Part shown: piece after piece, positions 2 through 11,839 of the stretch
How positions within the stretch are numbered: position 1 is the stretch's first letter
Layout of the letters: each line of letters begins with the position of its first letter
Source of the DNA: Bacteriovoracaceae bacterium UBA2394
GTDB taxonomy: Bacteria > Bdellovibrionota > UBA2394
Length of the DNA stretch: 11,839 nucleotides
Direction: 5' to 3'
Assembly: GCA_002343335.1 (NCBI GenBank)
Contig: DDSI01000183.1
Coordinates: 1 to 11,839 of the forward strand
The notes under the pieces: model-generated
Databases searched by the model: none
What the model saw: only the letters and a program-made list of their open reading frames with translations
What the model was told of the DNA's origin: nothing
Program-made: the position numbers and the translations under genes

Positions 2-25
2 TTCAAGATTGGAGTCTTAAAATGA
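2..25 (+). CDS. 3' end of an upstream gene (partial)
   Basis: The second reading frame is open from the left edge and stops at TGA 23-25, giving a tail that reads FKIGVLK. Its stop overlaps the ATG at 22 as ATGA, the same junction seen at 2652, 6889 and 9288, so this is the likely end of the preceding operon gene. The third frame also closes here (TAA at 18-20), so that frame is an alternative. Too little is present to name a product; in F, traW precedes traU, but nothing in these few residues tests that. Confidence 0.4.
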   Translation, partial: FKIGVLK

Positions 26-2655
26 GTATCCACCTCGTCGATTCTCCCTGGTGGTCGATGGCCAATTGCTTTTTGAAAGTGAATTTCTCGCTTTCGGTCT
101 TTCTTGTCATACAAATTGCCGCACGTCTTCCTGTTTGGAAGTGGCTCCGCCAGAGAACGACGAAGACGCTGCCCGATTTTCCCCAAATTAAGAATGAGAT
201 TGTGCTGGGTTCTTTGGATGAGGGAGACAAAGAAAAAACGCCCCTATGGACGAGCCAAAATCTTCGAGCGCTCAACGGAAACATTCTTTTTACCGGAAGC
301 ATTGGCACGGGAAAAAGCCAAGGCGGGATTCTGCCATGCTTCGAACAAATGCTTAAAAACTTTGATCCTCAACCCTCCATCCTCGCCATCGATCCGAAAG
401 GCACCTTTGTCGCTGAGGCAAAAAATATCGTTCAGCAACAGGGCCTTTCGGATCGTCTTCTTTGGATGTCTCTCTCGGGCGATGTGACGTTCAATCCCAT
501 CTACCATCCTGCAGCGCTCAAGAATTCCAACTTTCTCGACATCGCCCAGATGGTTCGAACAGCAGCCGTTAACTTTATGGGTCGAAGTAGCGACACCGCC
601 TTCTGGGATGTTTCAGCGTTTAATCTCATTAAGAATTGCTTAGTCTACTGTGCGGCCACTCAAGATTACTACACGCTGAGCGATCTTTACGCCGCGATGG
701 TCACTGCAAGAGACGACGGAGTGACGAGCAAACTCGATGAATGCCTTCGCGACCCTAAATTTACTCCTGAAGAAATTTTCAATATCAACCAAGCCCTTCT
801 TTATTTCATTTCAGAATTTAAGGAACTAGATGAAAGAACGCGATCAGGGATTTTGATTACGGCCACAAGCTTTCTCAATCAATTTCAAGAATATCGAGCC
901 GCCCAAATTTTCTGCCCACCGAAGGATAAACTTACGATTCATTCAATGAATGATGTCGTGGATAACGGAAAGATCTTACTTTTTTCCGTTACTTCTCCCG
1001 GTCTTGCACGCTCGATAGGGACTTTCCTCAAACTTCACTATGAGCAATCGATTCTTGATCGCCTGAATGACCCCAACCGCACCAAGGAGAGATCAGGACT
1101 TCTCCTTATCGACGAATATCAAGACGTAGTTTCGTCTGGAAATGGTGTTGTCTTAGGCGATGATCGTTTTCTCGCCAAAGGTCGCGAGGCCAACGCGATC
1201 ACGATTGCAGCCACTCAAAGTTTAACGACGATTGAAAACTCACTCGGAAAGCGAGAAGCCGCGCACGAGCTTTTCCAGAATTTTCGCACGCGCATCGCTC
1301 TTCAATCGACGGACCTTCACACCATTCGAGCTTTTCAAGAGTGCGCGGGGCAAGAGGAGCGCGAAAGAGTCTCCACAAGTCTGTCGGAATTCTCTCAAGA
1401 TGCTCGCATCAACTACTTGCACGGCGATTTCGAATCGAAGAACGCGAATCTTTCGGAGTCGGTCAACGTTTCCAAGAATAAGGAATATCTCGTCACTGCC
1501 GAAGATTTCTCTCGCCTAAAGACCTTCGAAGCCTTCGCTCAAATTTATGACGGCGTACAGACGGAATTTAAAAAGCTCTTTTTGAAGCCTCACTATTTGA
1601 AAGAAAAATCCACGCTTCACGAAAAAATTCTCGCACCGCTCATGAAAGTGGCGGCGGTTCTCTTGCTTTTCCTCGGAGTTCCTCAAACAGGTTTTTCGTT
1701 CCCCAATGTTTGCACGGCTCTTAATTCGGTCGATGCGGATTCTTGTATGAATTTTCAGGTATCGAGCTGCATGTGCGGCTGGCCCGTGCCAAGACCCTGC
1801 GCACGGTTTTCGTATTATTTGCCGCAAACATTTATCGAAGTGGTGGAGAATGCCAAAGAAACGTACTTCTCCGATCTTCCGGGAGCGAAGTCACAGCTTC
1901 TTGCAATGAGTACAGATTTTTTTGCTCCTTACGGAGTCGTTTCCGATAACGACACTCAAGCTTTCCATGCGCATGTGGTGAGCGTCCCCCTGCTCTCAGT
2001 AGTTCTCAATCTACTCCCTTGCAGGGGGCGCTTCACCGACAAATTCTGCTTCGATGCGATGAGCGAGCATTTCGGAGACCTCTGGAGAACGGGTTCAGGA
2101 GATTCTTTACAACCGAATTGGCTCGCGTGGATGGCGGCCCCTCAAGCGTGTCTTTTAAAAGGCGCCGCAATGTCAGCCAAAGGAGGAAGCGAGGGCCCGG
2201 AGCAAAACGCTGGTCCCATGTGCAGTGCTCCAGTGACAAAAATCCGAAAATTTCCACCGTCCAATCATTCGGCCTGTAACGGTTGGGGAATTTTTTATCC
2301 GAGATCGGGTGTCGTGACGGGTCCGAGCGACACCATCGGGGCACTCATGATCGCATCCCGCATCAAGAGTTTGTCAGCCGAAGTGCTCCATTCGTCTCGC
2401 AGTTCTTTCGATGAACTCTGGCAAGAAATTTCTCCGCAAAGTTCCTCGTGCTTTTCCGAGGGTCAAAATATCGGACCACTCGAACTCGCAAAGCGAGTGA
2501 CACAAGTAGGCCGCGTGAAGGGAAAGCTTAAAGGTCATTTGTTTACCGTTTGGCAGAAGTATTCGTGTTGTCAGGACTTAGCTCAAGTGCCTGCAGCGTA
2601 TGCAGCTCTGCAAGTCATGAAAGCAACCTGTCAGGGATTAGGAGGCGATCTATGA
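22..2655 (+). CDS. VirD4/TraD-like coupling ATPase fused to TraU
   Basis: 877 residues with two parts. Residues 1-540 look like a type IV coupling protein, the inner-membrane ATPase that delivers the relaxase-DNA complex to the secretion channel. One membrane segment lies at about 19-36, followed by a basic KWLRQR stretch. A canonical Walker A, GSIGTGKS, is at 92-99, Walker B LLLIDE at 360-365, and a TIAATQS motif at 394-400. Residues 541-877 resemble TraU, a periplasmic pilus-assembly protein of F systems: 14 cysteines, an AFHAH...PLL segment, WGIFYPRSG, and a terminal WQKYSCC at 844-850 like the WRKRNCC of F TraU. No stop separates the parts. The start at 22 has GGAG at 11-14 and overlaps the upstream stop as ATGA. 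The predicted topology is coherent: the ATPase stays cytoplasmic and the second hydrophobic segment (543-553) carries TraU into the periplasm. The frame is open to the left edge, so an earlier start is not strictly excluded. Confidence 0.85.
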   Translation: MSIHLVDSPWWSMANCFLKVNFSLSVFLVIQIAARLPVWKWLRQRTTKTLPDFPQIKNEIVLGSLDEGDKEKTPLWTSQNLRALNGNILFTGSIGTGKSQGGILPCFEQMLKNFDPQPSILAIDPKGTFVAEAKNIVQQQGLSDRLLWMSLSGDVTFNPIYHPAALKNSNFLDIAQMVRTAAVNFMGRSSDTAFWDVSAFNLIKNCLVYCAATQDYYTLSDLYAAMVTARDDGVTSKLDECLRDPKFTPEEIFNINQALLYFISEFKELDERTRSGILITATSFLNQFQEYRAAQIFCPPKDKLTIHSMNDVVDNGKILLFSVTSPGLARSIGTFLKLHYEQSILDRLNDPNRTKERSGLLLIDEYQDVVSSGNGVVLGDDRFLAKGREANAITIAATQSLTTIENSLGKREAAHELFQNFRTRIALQSTDLHTIRAFQECAGQEERERVSTSLSEFSQDARINYLHGDFESKNANLSESVNVSKNKEYLVTAEDFSRLKTFEAFAQIYDGVQTEFKKLFLKPHYLKEKSTLHEKILAPLMKVAAVLLLFLGVPQTGFSFPNVCTALNSVDADSCMNFQVSSCMCGWPVPRPCARFSYYLPQTFIEVVENAKETYFSDLPGAKSQLLAMSTDFFAPYGVVSDNDTQAFHAHVVSVPLLSVVLNLLPCRGRFTDKFCFDAMSEHFGDLWRTGSGDSLQPNWLAWMAAPQACLLKGAAMSAKGGSEGPEQNAGPMCSAPVTKIRKFPPSNHSACNGWGIFYPRSGVVTGPSDTIGALMIASRIKSLSAEVLHSSRSSFDELWQEISPQSSSCFSEGQNIGPLELAKRVTQVGRVKGKLKGHLFTVWQKYSCCQDLAQVPAAYAALQVMKATCQGLGGDL
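1642..2652 (+). other. traU: TraU-like domain of the fusion, with internal signal peptide
   Basis: This is the C-terminal 337 residues of the 877-residue fusion, close to the usual length of free-standing TraU (about 330). It begins like an independent secreted protein: MK, a hydrophobic run VAAVLLLFLGV, then PQTGFS, with a possible signal-peptidase site after S559 (GFS|FP). No Shine-Dalgarno sequence lies within about 15 bases of the ATG at 1642, so I do not call a separate gene. Whether the segment stays as a membrane anchor or is cleaved cannot be read from the sequence. Many cysteines imply disulfides, and the TraF-like CPHC protein is encoded downstream. Confidence 0.75.
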
Positions 2656-4250
2656 AATTTGGAGAACATCTCGTTCGAAGAAATTTGGCGAAAGACGGCG
2701 TGATTCACGAAGCTCTCGGAATCCAGCGCTATAAGAAACAACTTCTTGGACGCATTCTTCGCGATCTTGGCCACATCGATCAAACGACACTCAACCGGGA
2801 GCTCAAGCTGCACTTGAAACCCGTCCTTCATACGGATGTGCAGACGCTCAAAGTGGATGGGGAGTCTTTGAAGGATCGAGAAAAGGAAAATTGGGCTTCG
2901 CTTAAAGGAGTTCTTGTTCAAAAGGACACGGCTGAGAAGCTCGTGGTTCTCAGCAAAGACTATCGAGATGAAGTCATCGAAGAAGCAGAGAAGAACTATC
3001 GAAAAGCTTGTGAGCTTCTTTGCGTCAAAGAAGAAGTCTTTGATTACTTAAAAAATCAAACTCAAAAATCTTCGGCCTCCCGATTCTCGATGGAGACGCG
3101 AGAAAGCGACGACCAAAGAGTTGCCAAGGCGGAAGCCTATACGGCGCTTTTTCGAGACGCGCTTCTTCACGCTCAAAAGCAGAATGCGAGCGACATCCAT
3201 TTCGAACCCACGCGCGACGGCGTGGACATCCGGTTTCGCATTTTTGGAGATATGTCGAAGCCTTGGAAACAGCTTCCGCTTGAGCATCGTCAAAGCTTCA
3301 TGAACGAAGTGAAGAGACTTTCTAATCTCTCCATTGCGATTAGCGGGAAGCCTCAAGATGGCCGCATTTCTTTTAAGTCTTGGAACTTAGACGTTCGAGC
3401 GAATCTGCTTCCCACCCTTTACGGAGAAAAAATCGTTTTAAGACTTCTCGATTTAAAACGTGAATTTCATTTATCTGCACTCGGCCTTGAGGCCGATATT
3501 CTCGAAGATTTAAAAACCACTCTCGATTTCAAAAACGGAGTGGTTTTGATCTCGGGACCGACGGGAAGTGGAAAGACCACCACTCTCTACACGCTTCTAA
3601 GCGGGATCGATCGCAAGATGAAAAACATCGTTACGCTTGAAGATCCAGTCGAGTACGGACTCGATGGTATCAATCAGGTGAAGATTGATCGAAAGCTATC
3701 GTTCAATGACGCCTTGAGATCGGTCTTAAGACAAGACCCAGATGTCATTCTTGTTGGGGAAGTCCGCGATCAGGAAACGGCGGATCTTTGTTTCAAAGCA
3801 GCAGCCACAGGCCATCTTGTGCTTTCAACGATTCATGCGAATGGCGCAGCCGAAGTCATCACTCGGCTCATGAACTTAAAAGTTGAGCCCTACATGATTG
3901 AATCGAATTTAAGATTCTCCGCAGCCCAGCGGCTAGTGAAATCGATTTGTCCAAAGTGCTCGAAGACACTTTCGAACGATTCCGAAAAAGATCCTGATCT
4001 CATGAAACTTTTAGCGTCGCTCGGAACCCATGACGGTTTTCGAATGAAGGGATCGGGATGCGAACTCTGCAGAGAAGGGGTGACGGGTCGAGTCGCTCTC
4101 TTAGAGTACATGCGAAAAGATGAGATCAAAGACTATCTTGCTTCCGATCTGAAAAATTCTCCGAAGCTCGTGCAGTCATTGAAAGACGCAGCCATCAGAA
4201 AAGCGCGAGCGGGATCCATTGATGTGAAGGAGGTTCACCATGTGGCGTAA
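2652..4250 (+). CDS. GspE/PilB-family secretion/pilus ATPase
   Basis: 532 residues. This is a cytoplasmic hexameric ATPase of the type II secretion/type IV pilus class. Residues 1 to about 50 (KFGEHLVRRNL...LLGRILRDLGHID) match the GspE N-terminal domain pattern. A linker rich in charged residues follows, then the N2 domain with ASDIHFEP and a QDGR motif. Walker A GPTGSGKT lies at 302-309, and LEDPVEY and the Walker B region DVILVGEVRD (364-373) follow, then the histidine box GHLVLSTIHANGA. A zinc-type tetracysteine module, CPKC (433-436) with CELC (470-473), is characteristic of GspE/PilB and absent from ordinary VirB11. The ATG at 2652 overlaps the preceding stop as ATGA and follows AGGAGG (2640-2645) at 6 bases, so earlier starts in this frame are unlikely. 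It lies inside an F-type transfer operon, a class that normally has no VirB11. Powering pilus assembly or retraction is inferred from family and context. Confidence 0.92.
   Translation: MKFGEHLVRRNLAKDGVIHEALGIQRYKKQLLGRILRDLGHIDQTTLNRELKLHLKPVLHTDVQTLKVDGESLKDREKENWASLKGVLVQKDTAEKLVVLSKDYRDEVIEEAEKNYRKACELLCVKEEVFDYLKNQTQKSSASRFSMETRESDDQRVAKAEAYTALFRDALLHAQKQNASDIHFEPTRDGVDIRFRIFGDMSKPWKQLPLEHRQSFMNEVKRLSNLSIAISGKPQDGRISFKSWNLDVRANLLPTLYGEKIVLRLLDLKREFHLSALGLEADILEDLKTTLDFKNGVVLISGPTGSGKTTTLYTLLSGIDRKMKNIVTLEDPVEYGLDGINQVKIDRKLSFNDALRSVLRQDPDVILVGEVRDQETADLCFKAAATGHLVLSTIHANGAAEVITRLMNLKVEPYMIESNLRFSAAQRLVKSICPKCSKTLSNDSEKDPDLMKLLASLGTHDGFRMKGSGCELCREGVTGRVALLEYMRKDEIKDYLASDLKNSPKLVQSLKDAAIRKARAGSIDVKEVHHVA
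4227..4233 (+). promoter_or_regulatory. Strong ribosome binding site for the 36-residue ORF
   Basis: AAGGAGG sits 6 bases before the ATG at 4240, inside the last codons of the GspE-like gene. It is one of the best Shine-Dalgarno sequences in the window and has no other plausible start to serve, which is the main argument that the tiny ORF is translated. Confidence 0.75.
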
Positions 4251-4350
4251 TGCTATAAGCGCTCTTCCCGTTGTTGTGTTCTTTTTAGTTTGGCTTTCAC
4301 TGCTTGTTATTTTTCTGGCTCAGGCCGGAGGGATGGTGCGGCTTGGATAA
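4240..4350 (+). CDS. 36-residue single-pass membrane microprotein
   Basis: The ORF runs from ATG 4240 to TAA 4348-4350. It has a short MWRN head, one long hydrophobic helix at about residues 8-27 (LPVVVFFLVWLSLLVIFLAQ) and a short GGMVRLG tail. It overlaps the end of the upstream ATPase gene by 11 bases and the start of the TraF-like gene by 8, and it has an excellent AAGGAGG at 6 bases. I recognise no family. Its position suggests an inner-membrane partner of either neighbour, or a coupling ORF that brings ribosomes to the weak TTG start of the next gene. The basic residue near the N-terminus and the absence of a clear cleavage site favour a retained membrane peptide over a secretion signal. 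Confidence 0.6.
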   Translation: MWRNAISALPVVVFFLVWLSLLVIFLAQAGGMVRLG

Positions 4351-5152
4351 GAGAAAAGAGATTCTTCTCTTTCCGATAGTCTTCGTGCTGGCGTGGTTGT
4401 TCTCTCTTGCAGCCGTTTCGGGCGCTTCGTTCGATTATTTCTCGGGCGAGATCGACTATTGGAATGCCGAGAAGAAAAAGGAAGTCCCCAAACAAGATGC
4501 AGTTCCTCAGAAAGCCGCGACGGAAGCGAAGCCTAAGGAATTTAATTGGGAGAAACATCTCGATCCGAAAAATCCAGAATTTTTTAAAGAGGGTGATTAC
4601 ACACCTCCTGAGCCCTTCATGGAGATCGTGCGAAATCCTTCAGACGAAAATTTAAAACTTTGGTTTAAATACCTGGATCGAAAGAGCGAACTCAGCTCGC
4701 GACTCCAAAATCGAATGAGCGAGTATTTGGCGAAAGAGGGAAAAACTCTTGAACCTAAAGTTCAAGCCTCTCTTCGAACGCAAGCCGCTTCACTCCCCAG
4801 AGTAACACCAGACGCAAAACGCTATCGCTTTCGAATGTATTTCGATTCCACCTGCCCGCATTGCCGGCAGATGTTTGGAACTTTAAAAACGCTGCAAGAC
4901 CAGGGCTTCTTTGTGGAAGCTAAGCAACTCGACTCGAACGTCGAAGCTCTGAGCGATCTGCCCATCGTGACCTCTCCAGCGTCTAAGGAAGAAGTCGCCA
5001 AATATAAAATCGAGAGCGTTCCCTTTTTACTCATCGGAGATCTCAAGCAGGAGGTTGTCTATCAAATGACGGGTTTCCAAAGTCCCGAAAGTATTTTCGA
5101 ACATCTTCAATCTCAGCGCCAAAAAGAAAGGATCTTCACTTATGGAAAATAA
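4343..5152 (+). CDS. traF: TraF-like thioredoxin-fold pilus assembly protein
   Basis: 269 residues if started at TTG 4343, close to F TraF (about 257). An N-terminal signal sequence (KRK then ILLFPIVFVLAWLFSLAAVSG) directs it to the periplasm. A charged linker leads to a TraF-type helical region (FNWEKHLDP...NPSDENLKLWFKYLDR). The C-terminal thioredoxin fold has CPHC at 171-174 and an ESVPF cis-proline segment. F TraF lacks this active site, while its neighbour TrbB has one, so this protein may combine both jobs by making or correcting disulfides in TraU and other exported components. I chose the TTG because GGAGGG (4327-4332) lies upstream at a slightly long spacing and the initiator overlaps the stop of the microprotein ORF, which would allow re-initiation. 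A TTG at 4304 lies in the same frame but has no ribosome binding site. No in-frame ATG lies before the signal sequence. Confidence 0.82.
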   Translation: MDKRKEILLFPIVFVLAWLFSLAAVSGASFDYFSGEIDYWNAEKKKEVPKQDAVPQKAATEAKPKEFNWEKHLDPKNPEFFKEGDYTPPEPFMEIVRNPSDENLKLWFKYLDRKSELSSRLQNRMSEYLAKEGKTLEPKVQASLRTQAASLPRVTPDAKRYRFRMYFDSTCPHCRQMFGTLKTLQDQGFFVEAKQLDSNVEALSDLPIVTSPASKEEVAKYKIESVPFLLIGDLKQEVVYQMTGFQSPESIFEHLQSQRQKERIFTYGK

Positions 5153-5603
5153 AATTGCCCCATTCACATGGGCCTCTTGGGTGGAACTTTGTCCATCCAA
5201 AAGGACCTTAACGATTCTAGGAGTTCTAGCGATAACCTCCGCTTTGGTTCTTCTTCTGAGCGGAAACCTATTTGCCGCTGGCGGCCATCTTCCAGGAGCC
5301 GATGAGAGTGACAAGCTCGAAGCCGCGGGAACTCTCTTAAGACTGATCGACACCGGGCTCTTTAAATGGGGCGCACGCATTTTTGCGGGACTTTGCATTA
5401 TGGCCGCCGCTTGGTCGCTCAAAGAGCAGCGCTTTGGAGTATGTGTGATCTGCATTGTAGCAGCGATTATTTTTGGAACAGCTCCTACCTGGGTCAAAAA
5501 TATTTTCAATATGGGCGGAACGGACAGCATCTTTTCGTTGAACGCGCCTCCTTCCCACACGCTCGTTCTTCCGTCTTCCAATGGTGAGGTCTTCAATGTT
5601 TGA
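5142..5603 (+). CDS. traA: TraA-like conjugative pilin precursor
   Basis: 153 residues. The precursor has a long leader: about 20 residues, a basic KR, then a hydrophobic stretch ending NLFAAGG, with a likely signal-peptidase site near residue 45 or 46. F propilin likewise has an unusually long leader. The mature part has a charged segment (ADESDKLEA), then two membrane helices (about 73-91 and 98-115) joined by a short basic loop SLKEQRFG. That is the helix-loop-helix layout of TraA/VirB2 pilins, and GLFKWGARIFAG recalls the VVKWVV start of the F pilin first helix. A polar tail of about 35 residues follows the second helix, which F pilin lacks. The position directly before traL matches F. 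ATG 5142 follows AAAGGA and overlaps the traF-like gene by 11 bases. The call rests on architecture and synteny, since pilins diverge quickly. Confidence 0.75.
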   Translation: MENKIAPFTWASWVELCPSKRTLTILGVLAITSALVLLLSGNLFAAGGHLPGADESDKLEAAGTLLRLIDTGLFKWGARIFAGLCIMAAAWSLKEQRFGVCVICIVAAIIFGTAPTWVKNIFNMGGTDSIFSLNAPPSHTLVLPSSNGEVFNV

Positions 5604-5907: not shown

Positions 5908-5936
5908 GGAAACCCATCGCATGAACTCAAAACAAC

Positions 5937-5942
5937 AAGGAG
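5937..5942 (+). promoter_or_regulatory. Ribosome binding site that selects the 65-residue ORF
   Basis: AAGGAG lies 7 bases before the ATG at 5950. It decides that the small ORF is real in this stretch, where a second frame is also open from ATG 5921 through to the traE gene. Confidence 0.7.
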
Positions 5943-5949
5943 AAACCGA

Positions 5950-6147
5950 ATGGAAACACAACCCACCACCACCGAAAACAAAGTCCCCTTCGAGCGAAAG
6001 CCCGTCCAAGATATCCGCTTCCGACGATCCAAGGACGGAAAATACGTGCTCGTCGATGTCGTCCAAACCTGGATTTTTTCTCAGAAGTATTTCGAAGCTC
6101 TCGCAAAAAATACGAAAGCTTCGGATGCAACTACATCAAACGCTTAA
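5950..6147 (+). CDS. Unrecognised 65-residue protein between traL and traE
   Basis: A small soluble-looking protein. It opens with a polar, threonine-rich segment (METQPTTTENK), has a basic patch (VQDIRFRRSKDGKY), a short hydrophobic strand-like run (YVLVDVVQTWIFSQ), and ends in a polar tail. There is no signal peptide, membrane helix or cysteine. Codon choice matches the neighbours (CGA, GTC, TTC), and AAGGAG stands 7 bases upstream, so I consider it coding even though the competing frame is also open. F has no gene at this place; traL is followed directly by traE. I do not recognise the family. The location suggests a cytoplasmic accessory to the inner-membrane complex, but nothing in the sequence shows a function. 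Confidence 0.65.
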   Translation: METQPTTTENKVPFERKPVQDIRFRRSKDGKYVLVDVVQTWIFSQKYFEALAKNTKASDATTSNA

Positions 6148-6152
6148 ACGAT

Positions 6153-6158
6153 GGGAGG
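6153..6158 (+). promoter_or_regulatory. Ribosome binding site fixing the traE start
   Basis: GGGAGG stands 5 bases before ATG 6164. It argues that TraE begins here rather than at the in-frame ATG 5921, which would add 81 residues of low-complexity, proline- and serine-rich sequence lying over the 65-residue ORF. Confidence 0.7.
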
Positions 6159-6163
6159 CTTCT

Positions 6164-6892
6164 ATGGTCGGAGTGATTGAAAAAGGAGTTTCGGCTGCAA
6201 AGCTCGCGGAGCCTCCTCGCGGCAGTTACGAAGGAGTGAATCTGGAAGTTTTGCCGCGCTATATTTGTTACAAAGCGGCCCTGGTTCGAGAGAAAATGAC
6301 GCTGCAAACAGTGGTGGCGATTGTCGCCGCCGTTTTCGTCGTTTACTTCGCGATCAGTCGAATCGAAGTCCATTCGCTCTATTCGAAATTGAGAGAGAAG
6401 GAATATATTCTTGCGCCGGGAGTTCAGGATTTCACGCCTGCCTCACCGCATACGGTCTCCGATAGCTATGTGGAAGCAGCGACAACGGATTTCATGAATC
6501 GGCTCGGGAATTTGAATCCTCTCAATATCCAAGAGCAGTACGCGACTCTCTCCGATTCGATGAGCGCGCAACTGAAGATCAAATTCCAGGCGGAGAGTGC
6601 CGATTGGATTCGGAAAGTGAAGCAGGACAATTTGTCGGAGATCCTCAGCGTCCTTCAGAAGGAAATTCGTTCGAACGACGAGGGCTTCTACAAAGTCACG
6701 GCGGTTGTGCGAGTCGATTCCTACGTGAGCAACGAACACATTGGCGCGAGAGACGAAGTGATTCAAATGCTTCTTCGCCTCATTCCGCCTTCTCGTTCGT
6801 CTCGTTGGTTCTTAGAGATCGTAAGCCTCAGTCGAACGTCCGCCGACACGTTTAAAACCAAAGAATCTCTTCAAAAGGAGACTTCTCGATGA
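6164..6892 (+). CDS. traE: TraE-like core protein (VirB8-like)
   Basis: 242 residues. A cytoplasmic head of about 45 residues precedes a single membrane helix at about 46-65 (TLQTVVAIVAAVFVVYFAIS). A periplasmic domain follows, with ILAPGVQDFTPASPHTVSDSYV and FMNRLGNLNPLNIQEQYATL, which matches the TraE pattern of a PPG-like strand followed by a helix with GN-x-TP. TraE is the VirB8 equivalent that links the inner-membrane complex to the core. F TraE is about 188 residues, and the extra length here is mostly the longer cytoplasmic head. The stop overlaps the traK ATG as ATGA. The frame stays open back to ATG 5921, but the GGGAGG before 6164 and the 65-residue ORF in another frame favour the shorter form. 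Confidence 0.85.
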   Translation: MVGVIEKGVSAAKLAEPPRGSYEGVNLEVLPRYICYKAALVREKMTLQTVVAIVAAVFVVYFAISRIEVHSLYSKLREKEYILAPGVQDFTPASPHTVSDSYVEAATTDFMNRLGNLNPLNIQEQYATLSDSMSAQLKIKFQAESADWIRKVKQDNLSEILSVLQKEIRSNDEGFYKVTAVVRVDSYVSNEHIGARDEVIQMLLRLIPPSRSSRWFLEIVSLSRTSADTFKTKESLQKETSR

Positions 6893-7674
6893 AAACATTT
6901 ATTCCCTTATTCCTATTTGTCTTCCTGCTTTTGGAATCGACCGCTCAGGCTCGAACGGTTTATTACGTAAGCTCTACAGAGACAGTGCGACTCGTCTACG
7001 GTGGCTCCACGATTTTTCGCTTTGAAAAACCCGTGCGAACGATCTCGCAGGCGGCGTCGTTCTCCATTCGCCCCGTGGACGAAGAGAATCCGAATTACGC
7101 CATGCTTTCGGTAGAGCCTCGATTTACGAAATCCGATAGTCGAGTTTCTTTTATCTTAAGCGATGGCTCGATTGTAAACACGCGTCTTGTCGTTGTACCC
7201 ACCGAAAGCAAAGAGAAAGCAGACTCTGTTTATGATTTTAAATCGGAATCCACTTTACTCAAACAAACGGAATCTTCGTCTCCCATTGGAAAAATGGATC
7301 TCATGAAAGCTCTCATTCGAGGCGATTTTGTCGCGGGCTATTCCATTAAGGATCTTTCGATGGTCGTTCCGACAGGAATGAAGGGAGTGGAAGCGACGCT
7401 CACTCGGATTTATTCCGGCCAGGAATTCAACGGCTATATTTTTCGCATCGAAAATCAGAGCGATGAGAACAAAATCGAAATCGATATTCGAAAACTAAAA
7501 ATCGGCCAGCCGAACCTCGCTCTATTCTCCAGCATTGATCGAGATGTACTCGGACCAAAAGGAAGCAGCCGAAACTCGGCACTTCTTAAAATCATCGCGA
7601 AGCCTGCCTCCGTGGCCAGCGAAGTCGTGCTTCCTATTTCCTGGATTAAAAATGGAAAGGAGGGATCGAAGTGA
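6889..7674 (+). CDS. traK: TraK-like outer-membrane core protein (VirB9-like)
   Basis: 261 residues. A clear Sec signal peptide ends at A21 (STAQA|RTVYY). The mature protein is a beta-rich periplasmic polypeptide with no further membrane helix, close to F TraK in length (about 242). TraK, TraV and TraB together form the ring that spans the periplasm and outer membrane in F-type systems. The N-terminal strand region (VRLVYGGSTIFRFEKPVRTI) and a C-terminal region rich in short strands fit the family. The ATG at 6889 overlaps the traE stop as ATGA, with AAGGAG at 6875-6880. The assignment leans on position between traE and traB as much as on sequence. Confidence 0.8.
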   Translation: MKTFIPLFLFVFLLLESTAQARTVYYVSSTETVRLVYGGSTIFRFEKPVRTISQAASFSIRPVDEENPNYAMLSVEPRFTKSDSRVSFILSDGSIVNTRLVVVPTESKEKADSVYDFKSESTLLKQTESSSPIGKMDLMKALIRGDFVAGYSIKDLSMVVPTGMKGVEATLTRIYSGQEFNGYIFRIENQSDENKIEIDIRKLKIGQPNLALFSSIDRDVLGPKGSSRNSALLKIIAKPASVASEVVLPISWIKNGKEGSK

Positions 7675-8921
7675 GAAACCTTCGCGAAGTCGTTTTAGAA
7701 ACTTACGGGCGGGCCTACGCATGGGCACTTCCTTACAAGCGGTATTGGCCCGCTGTCGGAGCCGTGATGGCTGTTGTCCTTATATATGGTGTCAGCAAGG
7801 CATGCTCGCCTGAAGTTGTTTATCAAATCAAACGAGAAGGAGAATTTAAAGAGAGTCGGATCTTAGGTTCTCCGTTTTCCACCGTCATCGGAGGCAAAGA
7901 GCAACTCTTTGCCAAACACGCACAAGACCTAGAAGCGAATCAGGGACGACTCCAAGAAAAAATCGACACACTGACGAAATCGGTTGCCGAGCTTTCGGAA
8001 AAACTGAATTCAAGTGCCCCTCCTCCTGAAAAGAAGGAAGAATTGGCCACAGGAGCCCCAACTGTTCCATCAGAAAGCTCGGTCCCACGCTCGGACGTTC
8101 GCTATCATTCAGGAGATTCGTCGATAGAACCACAAGCCGTTCGCTCTGAACCTGCGAATGTTTTCGGCCCACCGAGACGATCCTTTGCAAGTCGGGGTCC
8201 GCAGATCGTTTCCTTTCCAGTGAAGGAGGATGAACAGGAAGACAAAAAGCCCGGCGTTGTTCTTCCTTCCGGCAGTTACGTGAAAGCAAAGGTGCTGACC
8301 GGCGTCGAAGCGCCCGAAGGAAAGACGTATCCTGTTCTCGTTCAACTCGATTTTGCTTACATCCTGCCCAATCACAATCGTCTCGATCTCGCCGGATGCT
8401 TCATGATCGCCAAAGCCACTGGAAACTTAAGCATTGAGCGCGTGGAAATGCAGGTCACAAAGATGAGCTGCGTCTCTCGTAAAGGGGAAATGTTTGAGCG
8501 AGAGGTGAATGGATTCATTGCAGACGATAAGGATAACAGCTTTGCGGTCGTAGGCTCCGTCAACTCCAAACAAGATCGAGTGGCTGCGATGTCGTTTCTC
8601 GCTTCCATCGTCTCAGGTGTAAGCAAAGCAATTCAGCAAGCTCAGACCACACAGCAAGTGAATCCACTCGGCGGCAGTCAGTCGATGATGACCGGCGATC
8701 AAATGAAATACATCGGAGCGGGAGGAGCGTCGGAAGCCGCCACCACCGTTGCCAATTGGTATCTCAATCAAGCTCAAAATTTACTTCCCACCATCAACAT
8801 CGGCTCAGGCCGCGATGTGTGGGTGATTATGCAAGACAGTGTTTCTCTGCCGGAAACTTATTTCAAGAAAGGAGAAGATCGTGATGCGACCTATTCATAT
8901 TTTACTCGGATGCTCAATTAG
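7671..8921 (+). CDS. traB: TraB-like core protein (VirB10-like)
   Basis: 416 residues, somewhat shorter than F TraB (475). It starts at GTG, overlapping the traK stop as GTGA, with AAGGAGGG (7657-7664) 6 bases upstream. A cytoplasmic head precedes a membrane helix at about 26-43. A predicted coiled coil covers about 77-113 (ending AELSEKLNS), and a proline- and serine-rich spacer follows (about 116-195). The conserved VirB10/TraB beta-barrel domain starts with VLPSGSYVKAKVLTGVEAP at 198-216 and ends with LPTINIGSGRDVWVIMQDSV, where GRDVWVIM (380-387) is the family's terminal strand motif. TraB spans from inner to outer membrane and couples ATPase energy to channel gating. The 3' end overlaps traV by 38 bases. 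Confidence 0.92.
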   Translation: MRNLREVVLETYGRAYAWALPYKRYWPAVGAVMAVVLIYGVSKACSPEVVYQIKREGEFKESRILGSPFSTVIGGKEQLFAKHAQDLEANQGRLQEKIDTLTKSVAELSEKLNSSAPPPEKKEELATGAPTVPSESSVPRSDVRYHSGDSSIEPQAVRSEPANVFGPPRRSFASRGPQIVSFPVKEDEQEDKKPGVVLPSGSYVKAKVLTGVEAPEGKTYPVLVQLDFAYILPNHNRLDLAGCFMIAKATGNLSIERVEMQVTKMSCVSRKGEMFEREVNGFIADDKDNSFAVVGSVNSKQDRVAAMSFLASIVSGVSKAIQQAQTTQQVNPLGGSQSMMTGDQMKYIGAGGASEAATTVANWYLNQAQNLLPTINIGSGRDVWVIMQDSVSLPETYFKKGEDRDATYSYFTRMLN

Positions 8922-9291
8922 TTTGATTCTCTCGGGATGTGTGAGCCGGGCTCCGTCTCTCAGAGTCCTCGACGGTCGAGCGCACTATCAGGAAGATTCT
9001 CCCGAACTGAAACTGAAAGCCTCGGGGCCTTTCGCCACACCCGACGGGGAACCTGTTCGGCTGCAACCCCAAGTCCATAAGGTCTGGGTGCATCCCTTTG
9101 AAATGGAGACCGGTGACTACTTTTGGGGTGGCTATATGTCGCTTTTGACCAAAGGCGACCAATGGTCGTTCCGATATCCTGACGATGCCGATCCCAACTT
9201 TGCAAACTCCGAGTCACGAGGTCCGCTTAAAAAAGTGGCTCTTCCTAAGAAAAAAACTTCACCCAGTTCTCAGAAGGGAGGCTCGCGATGA
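8884..9291 (+). CDS. traV: TraV-like outer-membrane lipoprotein (VirB7-like)
   Basis: 135 residues. A lipoprotein signal sequence ends in the lipobox LSGC, with C19 the lipidated residue. TraV is the VirB7-like lipoprotein that anchors the TraK/TraB ring in the outer membrane. The motif VWVHPFEMETGDYFWGGYM at about 67-85, followed by GDQW, matches the region of TraV that carries W-x-x-P-F/W. The C-terminal tail is short and basic (LPKKKTS), shorter than F TraV (171). A GTG at 8881 and the ATG at 8884 are both in frame and both served by GGAG at 8871-8874; I take the ATG. The gene starts inside the last 38 bases of traB and ends by overlapping traC as ATGA. Confidence 0.85.
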   Translation: MRPIHILLGCSISLILSGCVSRAPSLRVLDGRAHYQEDSPELKLKASGPFATPDGEPVRLQPQVHKVWVHPFEMETGDYFWGGYMSLLTKGDQWSFRYPDDADPNFANSESRGPLKKVALPKKKTSPSSQKGGSR

Positions 9292-11839
9292 GCGTAGCTT
9301 CGAAAATCATGGAAAAAGCACTCGGGCGCGAAGACATTTTTAGGAAAGCTCTTTTTGAGCGTCCCGAGTCTTTAAGCCAATTTCTTCCCTACGATGAGTT
9401 CTTGGAAGAAGACGGACTCTTTGTATTAAAGGACGGTTCCCTCGGAGCAGTGTTTTCTCTGGAGCCCGTTGAGCACGAGCCACTAACGAAAGAAGAAATC
9501 ATCTCGTCCGTCGATCAACTGCGCTCTTGGTTCTCGCTTCCTGAGAACTGCGTCTTTCAGGTGCTTTACGAGCAAGCTTCCGTCTCAAGCTTGGATCAGC
9601 GCTGGGAAAAAGCTCAAGGGGCCTATCCTGAAGCGCATTCCGTTTCCAAAATGCTGAATGAAAAGCGTGTTCAGGAAATGAAAGCCTCTTGTTTGAGTGC
9701 CAATGCTCCTCTGGAGAGAAAAGTCTATCTTGGGATTCGCTATTTTCCAGAAAAGGAACCAGCCTTTCCTGGAAAAAATCTTTTCGAAAAGGGAGAGAAG
9801 ACTGTTTTCAAACAAATGGCCTCGACATCGAAGGATGTTCAAGCTTTTCGAAGTATCGTCCAAAATTTTAAAGCCAATTCCAAAATTCCGCTCGTGCGTT
9901 TGAGCGCCCAAGAGCTTCTCGATGTCTTAAGAAGATTCTTTAATCCGAAAACTTTCTATAAACGAAGCTTTGTTCCTTATAATCCGAATCTCTCTTTGTC
10001 GGAGCAGATTCTCTATAACAATCCTCTGCTCGACCACGCAGGCGTCGAGCGAGAGGGACTTAAGACTAGAACCTTGTCGCTCAAAACTTCTCCCCAGTAT
10101 GCCTATCCCGGTGGGATGGCTTACTTTACTCGGCTTTTGTTTCCCTTTCGCCTAAGTCTCAGTTTCAGCTTTCCAAGCAAAGCGAAGGTCAAACAATTTT
10201 TCGATCTCAAAGAATTTTTTCTGCAAAATACTCCTTCCGCACGCGCAAGACGGCAGAAGGATGAAGTCTTAGAAGTTCAAAATCGATTGGCGCACGATGA
10301 TCGATGTTTGCATTTGACCTTCAATGTCGTTCTCGAAGGAGAAACAGAAGAAATTCTCGATGAGCAAACGCGTCAGTTTTTAAACATTTTTCAAAATGAT
10401 CTTGAGTGTGAGGCTATCGTCGAAAATGACATTGGCCTTGGATTGGCGCTAAACGCTCTTCCGCTGAATTACAGCCCAAAAGCAGACTATTCCACTCGTC
10501 GGGCCATTCGAATCTTGAGATCCGATGCCACGAAGTTTCTGCCTATCTTTGATTCGTTCCGAGGACTTAAAAATCCACTTCAGCTTTATTTATCGCGCGA
10601 GAACACGCCGATCTATTTTTCGCTTCTCGAAAACGAAACTTCCAATCATACGGTGGTGCTCGCGGACAGTGGTTCCGGCAAAAGTGCGTTCATTATCGAC
10701 TGCGTGCAAGCCGTAAAACGAATGAATCCCGAGCCTCTCGTTTTCGTGATCGATAAAAAATCAAGCTACCCCATGATCGCGGAATATTTCGATGCGGATT
10801 TCACGCGATTTGAGAGAGACAAGCCCATCTCCTTCAGTCCTTTTCGAGGAATTTACGACGAAGAGAAGATTGCATTTCTCACACATCTCATCGTCTCCGG
10901 GATTCAGATGACGAGCCCAAGCTTTGCAGTGGAAAGCGATCACCGTGCTGCCATCGCCAAAGCTTTAAAGCTCGCTTACATCAAAAAACTTCAGCAACGC
11001 GGACTCGCGTATGTGGAAGGCGAGCTTCTCAGTGACTCCAACGGAGGAGACGTGGAACTTACGATGGATGATGTGGTCTTCGAACTCGCCTCTTTACCAT
11101 CTCATCCCCAATTTGAAAAATTCACGGAAATAACAGAACAGCTTAACCAAAAACTCACTCCGTTTTATGGCGATGGAATTTACGCCAAGTTCTTTAGTGC
11201 CAAGAGCGAGGAGCGAAAGAAATCAAAACTTTTCTACATCTATGATTTGGATGCTCTCGATGGAGACCCGATTCTTCAAGCCCTCATGACGATGGCCGTG
11301 CTTGAAGAAATCAGACAGATCATTCGTCTACCGGAAAACAAAGGTCGAGGCGGATACATTGTCCTTGAGGAACTCGGAATGCTCGGAAGGGCAAACCCCA
11401 CAGCGAGTCGGATGCTTATTGATTTTGCTGAAACCAGTCGAAAACTCGGTTACTGGCTCATCAGTCTTACCCCTCGACCACAAAACTATTTTGAACTGGA
11501 TGCGGGAAAAGCGATGTGGAGTGTCGCAGACAATTTTGTTTTTCTTCAAATGTCAGCGGACAATGTGGGCTATCTCTCTGAAAAATCCGCTCTTCTGGAT
11601 GAAGCCAACGCGGAAATTATCAAGTCACTCCGAACTGTTCGAGGTCAATACGCGGAAGTTTTTTTCATGAACAAGAAAAAAACACGCCAAGGCGCCTTTC
11701 GTTTTGTTCAGACGACCCTTGATCGCTGGCTTGCTCCGACGAACGCGAAAGATGCTGCAGCAGCGGATAAAGCGTTCAAAAAATTCGGAGACGATAAATG
11801 GAAAGTCCTTGAGTTTCTCGCGACCACGTATCCAAACGG
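9288..11839 (+). CDS. traC: TraC-like secretion ATPase (VirB4-like), 3' end outside window
   Basis: 850 codons are open from ATG 9288 to the right edge without a stop; F TraC has about 875, so the protein is nearly complete. It starts with GGGAGG (9276-9281) at 6 bases and overlaps traV as ATGA. The N-terminal 400 or so residues are the TraC/VirB4 domain (SQFLPYDEFLEEDGLFVLKDGSLG near 30-52). The ATPase domain follows: a P-loop ADSGSGKS at 459-466, VFVIDKKSSY shortly after, FYIYDLDAL and a Walker B-like IVLEELGML at 691-699. TraC is a peripheral inner-membrane ATPase that powers pilin handling and works with TraL and TraE. Two deviations stand out: the usual first glycine of the P-loop is alanine (A459), and Walker B has E694-E695 where family members normally have D-E. 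Confidence 0.93.
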   Translation, partial: MSVASKIMEKALGREDIFRKALFERPESLSQFLPYDEFLEEDGLFVLKDGSLGAVFSLEPVEHEPLTKEEIISSVDQLRSWFSLPENCVFQVLYEQASVSSLDQRWEKAQGAYPEAHSVSKMLNEKRVQEMKASCLSANAPLERKVYLGIRYFPEKEPAFPGKNLFEKGEKTVFKQMASTSKDVQAFRSIVQNFKANSKIPLVRLSAQELLDVLRRFFNPKTFYKRSFVPYNPNLSLSEQILYNNPLLDHAGVEREGLKTRTLSLKTSPQYAYPGGMAYFTRLLFPFRLSLSFSFPSKAKVKQFFDLKEFFLQNTPSARARRQKDEVLEVQNRLAHDDRCLHLTFNVVLEGETEEILDEQTRQFLNIFQNDLECEAIVENDIGLGLALNALPLNYSPKADYSTRRAIRILRSDATKFLPIFDSFRGLKNPLQLYLSRENTPIYFSLLENETSNHTVVLADSGSGKSAFIIDCVQAVKRMNPEPLVFVIDKKSSYPMIAEYFDADFTRFERDKPISFSPFRGIYDEEKIAFLTHLIVSGIQMTSPSFAVESDHRAAIAKALKLAYIKKLQQRGLAYVEGELLSDSNGGDVELTMDDVVFELASLPSHPQFEKFTEITEQLNQKLTPFYGDGIYAKFFSAKSEERKKSKLFYIYDLDALDGDPILQALMTMAVLEEIRQIIRLPENKGRGGYIVLEELGMLGRANPTASRMLIDFAETSRKLGYWLISLTPRPQNYFELDAGKAMWSVADNFVFLQMSADNVGYLSEKSALLDEANAEIIKSLRTVRGQYAEVFFMNKKKTRQGAFRFVQTTLDRWLAPTNAKDAAAADKAFKKFGDDKWKVLEFLATTYPN

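Follow-up and report, generated by a model that had tools for sequence, protein, structure and literature searches.

A predicted polyprotein joining a type IV coupling protein to TraU in conjugation loci of Bdellovibrionota

In the 11,839-nucleotide window analysed here (Bacteriovoracaceae bacterium UBA2394, contig DDSI01000183.1), a single open reading frame encodes a type IV coupling protein joined to a TraU-like protein, and this fusion is a real, conserved architecture. Judging from its sequence, the gene probably specifies a precursor polyprotein that would be cut by signal peptidase I into the coupling protein and a periplasmic TraU. The architecture is what is new; the domains and the fold are those of a known coupling protein and of TraU. 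The gene and its parts are laid out as follows.

11..14, + strand: GGAG, a possible ribosome-binding site 7 bases before ATG22 (seen in the sequence; role inferred)
22..1617, + strand: type IV coupling protein half (VirD4/TrwB-type ATPase), residues 1-532 (Pfam and structure model; the gene may in truth begin beyond the contig end)
46..126, + strand: N-terminal membrane helix, residues 9-35 (model helix; hydropathy segment 16-34)
295..318, + strand: Walker A, GSIGTGKS, residues 92-99 (translation)
1096..1116, + strand: Walker B region, residues 359-365 (D364 and E365 invariant in 100 sequences)
1618..1698, + strand: internal signal-peptide-like segment, residues 533-559, with a predicted signal peptidase I cut after 559 (-3/-1 rule, unfused TraU, pLDDT)
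1699..2655, + strand: mature TraU, residues 560-877, and the stop codon (Pfam TraU; hhalign to F TraU)

The frame at 22-2655 runs for 877 codons without a stop from ATG22 and is open back to base 1. A first-pass annotation had read it as a VirD4/TraD-like ATPase and a TraU in one ORF, and profile searches of the two halves bear this out: Pfam matched TrwB_AAD_bind at residues 86-513 (46.5 bits, cut-off 20.5), TraG-D_C at residues 383-500 (28.4 bits, cut-off 22) and TraU (PF06834) at residues 568-716, the better of two stretches (35.3 bits, cut-off 26.5). The Walker A motif at 92-99 and the Walker B Asp-Glu pair at 364-365 are in the translation where that annotation had placed them, and within Walker A residues G95, G97 and K98 are at least 90% conserved in 100 sequences. 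Its TraU, drawn at 541-877, keeps its identity and loses its boundary, as a signal-peptide-like segment occupies approximately residues 533-559 and the mature protein would begin at 560 (base 1699). When an alignment of 28 TraU halves was used as the hhalign query, the TraU of plasmid F aligned over 221 columns (F residues 81-327, E 6e-5) with a probability of only 64.6.

An AlphaFold model of the fusion, built with an alignment of 100 of the best 120 homologues, had a mean pLDDT of 90.9 and a pTM of 0.64, and pLDDT fell below 50 only at residues 1-7 and 552-557. The best Foldseek matches of the coupling half were Cagbeta (8dol, E 4.7e-15) and TrwB (1e9s, E 2.9e-12). The TraU model retrieved no Foldseek match at E 0.001, and a PDB sequence search with the whole fusion retrieved none at E 0.01. 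Relaxase and MobC genes share the contig with the predicted coupling protein.

A search of about 5.8 billion proteins gave 252 matches at E 0.001, one of them the window's own protein. The best 120 of these 252 are 747-1049 residues long, cover 83-100% of the query and all align through the join (120/120, window's included). The three closest homologues among the matches listed are 69-74% identical and keep both parts. A genome scan with an alignment of 28 fused proteins gave 33 loci, and together with whole-genome searches and fetched stretches we obtained 42 TraU loci, 41 of them distinct (L042, a cut piece of L017, was left out). At 32 of the 41, the ATPase, or at least its Walker B half, is in the TraU frame, and at none is the ATPase found solely in a different frame from TraU. 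The remaining nine have no ATPase: four are cut by a contig end (L027, L028, L029 and L047, of which L027 and L028 are apparently the other ends of the L019 and L082 genes) and five carry a lone TraU. Because the fused protein served as the query, divergent separate genes would escape this count.

Within the phylum, 32 of 368 genomes have any match, the window's own included, and in 24, which bear eight family labels, a single-frame match spans the join (counted by row); the fusion occurs in 0 of 4 genomes of the same family. Among the matches listed, the named fusion records are Bdellovibrionota and the others are titled just bacterium or proteobacterium, while the genome scan gave five further loci from Verrucomicrobia that match by a distant ATPase alone. 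A divergent branch, of which L088 is the representative, is fused too, with approximately 35-39% identity to the main branch. In the fused protein of L006 the TraU part scores 24.6 bits, below the Pfam cut-off of 26.5; its protein and the unfused ones of L025 and L026 were called TraU by 44-50% identity to the window's TraU half.

The gene stands at the end of a contig in a draft genome of 283 contigs, where a sequencing or assembly error could have joined two genes. The best 120 of 252 proteins all share this join, which is also present at 32 of the 41 distinct TraU loci and in 24 of the 368 phylum genomes, and because the fused family is conserved such an error is excluded for practical purposes.

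The join itself has the features of a signal peptide. In the model, a helix at residues 533-552 leads into the low-confidence stretch 552-557, with the TraU fold coming after it, and all of the best 120 of 252 proteins have an uncharged run of 8-24 residues within the 40 residues before the join. A purpose-written script required A, G or S at -1 and, at -3, any of AVSTGILC; directly before mature TraU the test fits in 98 of these 120 proteins, and none of the 45 other offsets between -15 and +30 scores above 78/120. Ala alone occupies -1 in 77 of the 120, while -2 and -4 are highly variable. All 22 proteins that fail at the aligned site fit 1-3 residues earlier, but so do 718 of 1080 control triplets of upstream sites, which makes these earlier sites weak support. 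The window's own site, TGFS|FP, has Ser at -1 and Gly at -3, which is acceptable and not the strongest form. Segment 533-559 thus looks like a signal peptide, and cleavage is predicted because the residues at -3 and -1 of the join stay small.

Lone TraU genes provide a comparison. At L025, L026, L045, L075 and L076, which are F-like transfer operons whose fetched stretches gave no match to the ATPase, the N-terminal segments of the unfused TraU end in AHA|FPSVC (twice), AWS|FPTVC, AHA|LPTVC and ALA|SPTVC, and they align with the join. A start equipped with a ribosome-binding-site-like stretch was found for three of these five unfused proteins (L025, L045 and L076) and for neither L026 nor L075. 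At a threshold of 0.01, Pfam recognised the unfused TraU of neither L025 nor L026. Four of the five loci form one TraC clade, and L045 is too short to place. In a distant relative, L089, the TraU-like, GspE-like and coupling genes are adjacent but separate.

Some of the lone-TraU loci have further genes nearby. A short gene for a sigma-70 region 4 protein (Pfam) precedes TraU in L025, and a similar one was seen by eye in L045. In both loci, too, a gene for a YcaO-domain protein (Pfam in L025) lies close to that of a small conserved protein whose sequence ends in GGTICF (L025 2626-5641; L045 4277-7295); these genes adjoin regulator-like genes and the type IV secretion genes, which raises the possibility of a modified-peptide pathway.

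Some hydrophobic runs before the join, at up to 24 uncharged residues, are long enough to be membrane anchors, and the model helix 533-552 is continuous. Both points would suit a fusion that stays uncut, with 533-559 as a membrane anchor and the motor linked for good to a TraU on the periplasmic side of the inner membrane. We regard this as unlikely: an anchor would not need the small residues that are kept at -3 and -1 and not at -2 and -4, the segment aligns with the signal peptides at the N-terminus of unfused TraU, and no internal stretch other than the one immediately ahead of the predicted cut falls below pLDDT 50. For the same reason, that the join holds a signal-peptide-like segment with small residues at -3/-1 and cleavage is predicted, we do not retain the earlier proposal of a covalent link holding the two proteins in a fixed 1:1 ratio. 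Equal synthesis from unbroken genes is likely, and a lasting tether is not.

A second alternative is that an internal translation start at the signal peptide makes most of the TraU and that the read-through fusion is a minor product. The window does have an ATG at 1643, just ahead of its hydrophobic stretch, and in 4 of 27 fused loci a start lying 10-40 codons ahead of the predicted cut comes with a possible ribosome-binding site. Against this, none of the five in-frame starts near the join in the window has a ribosome-binding-site-like stretch, and 23 of the 27 fused loci, the window included, have no in-frame start so equipped in that interval. Among the best 120 of 252 proteins, no Met position near the join is conserved by eye, and only in 66 does a Met occur anywhere within the final 28 residues before it. 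Internal initiation as the main source of TraU therefore seems improbable.

The cysteines of the family fit a processed precursor. Mature TraU has 14 alignment columns in which at least 87% of 100 sequences carry Cys; at a threshold of half the sequences, 14 columns qualify after residue 560 and three before it, and at least eight Cys follow the join in every one of the best 120 of 252 proteins. This bias is as expected if only the TraU part reaches the oxidising periplasm, and a thioredoxin-like gene lies two genes on.

In the processing we favour, the cytoplasmic part would serve as a type IV coupling protein, and the internal signal peptide would direct the TraU part behind it to export by the Sec machinery. 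A cut at residue 559/560 by signal peptidase I would follow, leaving the coupling protein with a second membrane helix as a putative anchor at its C-terminus and releasing a disulfide-rich TraU into the periplasm. Both products would be made at the same time and place, in equal amounts where the gene is unbroken, and the arrangement may serve to provide motor and TraU in matching amounts for DNA transfer.

Not all genes of the family are unbroken. A break near residue 150, after Walker A and ahead of Walker B, divides the ATPase of L010, L015, L017, L023 and L040 (genome G026) into two frames; these overlap where the first one ends, and the second has an ATG preceded by AGGAG. The second half remains fused to TraU (L010, L015, L017 and L023), with the overlaps at 10446-10468 in L010, 10291-10309 in L015, 10404-10426 in L017 and 10317-10339 in L023. 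The same break was found in L082 by tblastn, and in L084 the membrane domain has an ORF of its own, which overlaps that of the ATPase. Two further loci have an apparent -1 frame change at an in-phase A AAA AAG (L021 at about 10594, L022 at about 10609), and L002 has one at another place (about 2973). In both L021 and L022 a GAGGC...GCCTC hairpin lies 5 bases after the A AAA AAG, with fold z-scores of -1.60 and -4.26, respectively, compared with -0.15 at the L002 site; the in-phase heptamer has four occurrences in 15 unbroken genes. We regard the L021 and L022 sites as candidates for programmed -1 frameshifting. Because these two loci form one clade, a single origin of their frameshift is suggested. 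The genomes being draft, the frame change of L002 alone could be an error.

Whatever the break, the join of the Walker B half to TraU is kept at all 32 distinct loci with a coupling protein, L089 lying outside the family. As a tentative extension to the whole family, which we hold with somewhat less than even confidence, these Bdellovibrionota conjugation systems may make the motor and TraU as a Sec-processed polyprotein whose ratio is tuned in some lineages by restarts or programmed -1 frameshifting, with the Walker B-TraU join kept wherever a coupling protein is present and the cut leaving a C-terminal anchor.

The start of the fusion is uncertain because the window begins at a contig end: its base 1 is the end of an 18,638-base contig in a draft genome of 2.65 Mb. 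The GGAG ahead of ATG22, and the fact that P0002 and P0003, the two closest homologues among the matches listed, start at the position aligned to it, point to a possible start there. The window shows one membrane segment before the ATPase, whereas 84 of 97 proteins longer than 950 residues among the matches listed have 3-4 predicted membrane segments ahead of it. It may be that the window's coupling protein starts at ATG22 and that other membrane helices are encoded upstream.

Downstream, the fusion is followed by a row of transfer genes.

2652..4250, + strand: GspE/PilB-like secretion ATPase (Pfam T2SSE, 316 bits; queried from 2649)
4304..5152, + strand: thioredoxin-fold TraF/TrbB-like protein (TIGR02738 TrbB, E 1.3e-5; Pfam Thioredoxin_2, E 1.3e-5; both below cut-offs)
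5142..5603, + strand: pilin-like small membrane protein (weak TrbC/VirB2 match, E 0.014, below cut-off)
5921..9291, + strand: TraE-, TraK-, TraB- and TraV-like genes (TraE and TrbI (TraB) pass the Pfam cut-off; TraK and TraV fall short of it)
9288..11839, + strand: TraC/VirB4-type ATPase (Pfam TraC_F_IV, 88.2 bits; continues past the window to contig position 11879)

The ATG of the GspE/PilB-like gene overlaps the fusion stop (ATGA), with TAGGAGG upstream, and the gene is found at 38 of the 41 distinct TraU loci, the other three being cut there. Its product matches an MshE-type c-di-GMP-binding N-terminal model, below cut-off. Elsewhere in the family, response-regulator-like, solute-binding-like and sensor-like genes recur by eye upstream of the transfer operon (L006, L024 and L025). 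The TraV-TraC gap, compact in other loci, is approximately 1.3 kb in L015 (18545-19852) and 1.8 kb in L006 (18770-20590), where there may be insertions.

Beyond the window, the contig carries a gene with a TraH-like match below cut-off, another for a membrane protein without a family, and genes for NikA/MobC, a MobA/VirD2-type relaxase and a tyrosine integrase, these last three over cut-off. The sporadic spread of the fusion and these downstream MobC, relaxase and integrase genes suggest that the locus belongs to an integrative conjugative element. A spread so patchy, with matches in few genomes of the phylum and in none of the four same-family genomes, might also mark a decaying or non-functional copy of such an element, as might the N-terminal helices that are possibly missing. 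We consider this very unlikely, given that the full reading frame has no stop, the Walker residues are intact, the neighbouring genes are open and the closest listed homologues keep both parts.

The row of TraE-, TraK-, TraB-, TraV-, TraC- and TraH-like genes resembles an F-type (MPF_F) operon. Unlike that operon, it has a GspE/PilB-like ATPase after TraU, a gene absent from the F transfer region, and no match to TraN, TraW or the F-type TrbC was found among the scanned ORFs of the window and the contig continuation. In F, as the first-pass annotation had said, traU (77377-78369) and traD (89804-91957) are separate genes, approximately 11 kb apart. The TraU half shares with the TraU of F-type systems the Pfam family, the aligned columns noted above, a signal-peptide-like segment and many cysteines. 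The coupling half resembles VirD4/TrwB/TraD proteins in its Walker motifs, its TrwB_AAD_bind and TraG-D_C domains, its Cagbeta/TrwB fold and its relaxase context, and differs from them in the C-terminal signal-peptide-like segment and TraU that the fusion adds; its match to F TraD is weak. We know of no coupling protein with a C-terminal membrane anchor.

A parallel to the predicted processing is FbcH of Bradyrhizobium, a fused cytochrome b/c1 precursor that is cut by signal peptidase. There too, a membrane protein and an exported protein are joined through an internal signal peptide; the proteins are unrelated to those described here, and processing of the ATPase-TraU fusion is predicted. Among the matches listed in titles and abstract openings of the open-licence literature, no description of a coupling protein-TraU fusion was found, in keeping with the earlier statement that no described example was known. 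The introduction of an article on coupling proteins (PMC7431656) gives five architecture classes and mentions a periplasmic C-terminal protein in none of them; the article assigns TrwB two N-terminal membrane segments, compared with mostly 3-4 in the long homologues of the fusion.

According to a review, F TraU is a processed periplasmic protein that is generally assigned a role in DNA transfer, which fits its joint production with a motor; the same text describes that role as unsettled, with no structural information as of 2020 (PMC7555446). Here TraU would be made together with the DNA-pumping ATPase, and it stands alone in the five loci that have no coupling protein in the fetched stretch, a pattern that offers a testable link between TraU and DNA transfer. 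If the predicted processing is correct, it would add a processed-polyprotein strategy, possibly combined with recoding, to type IV secretion.
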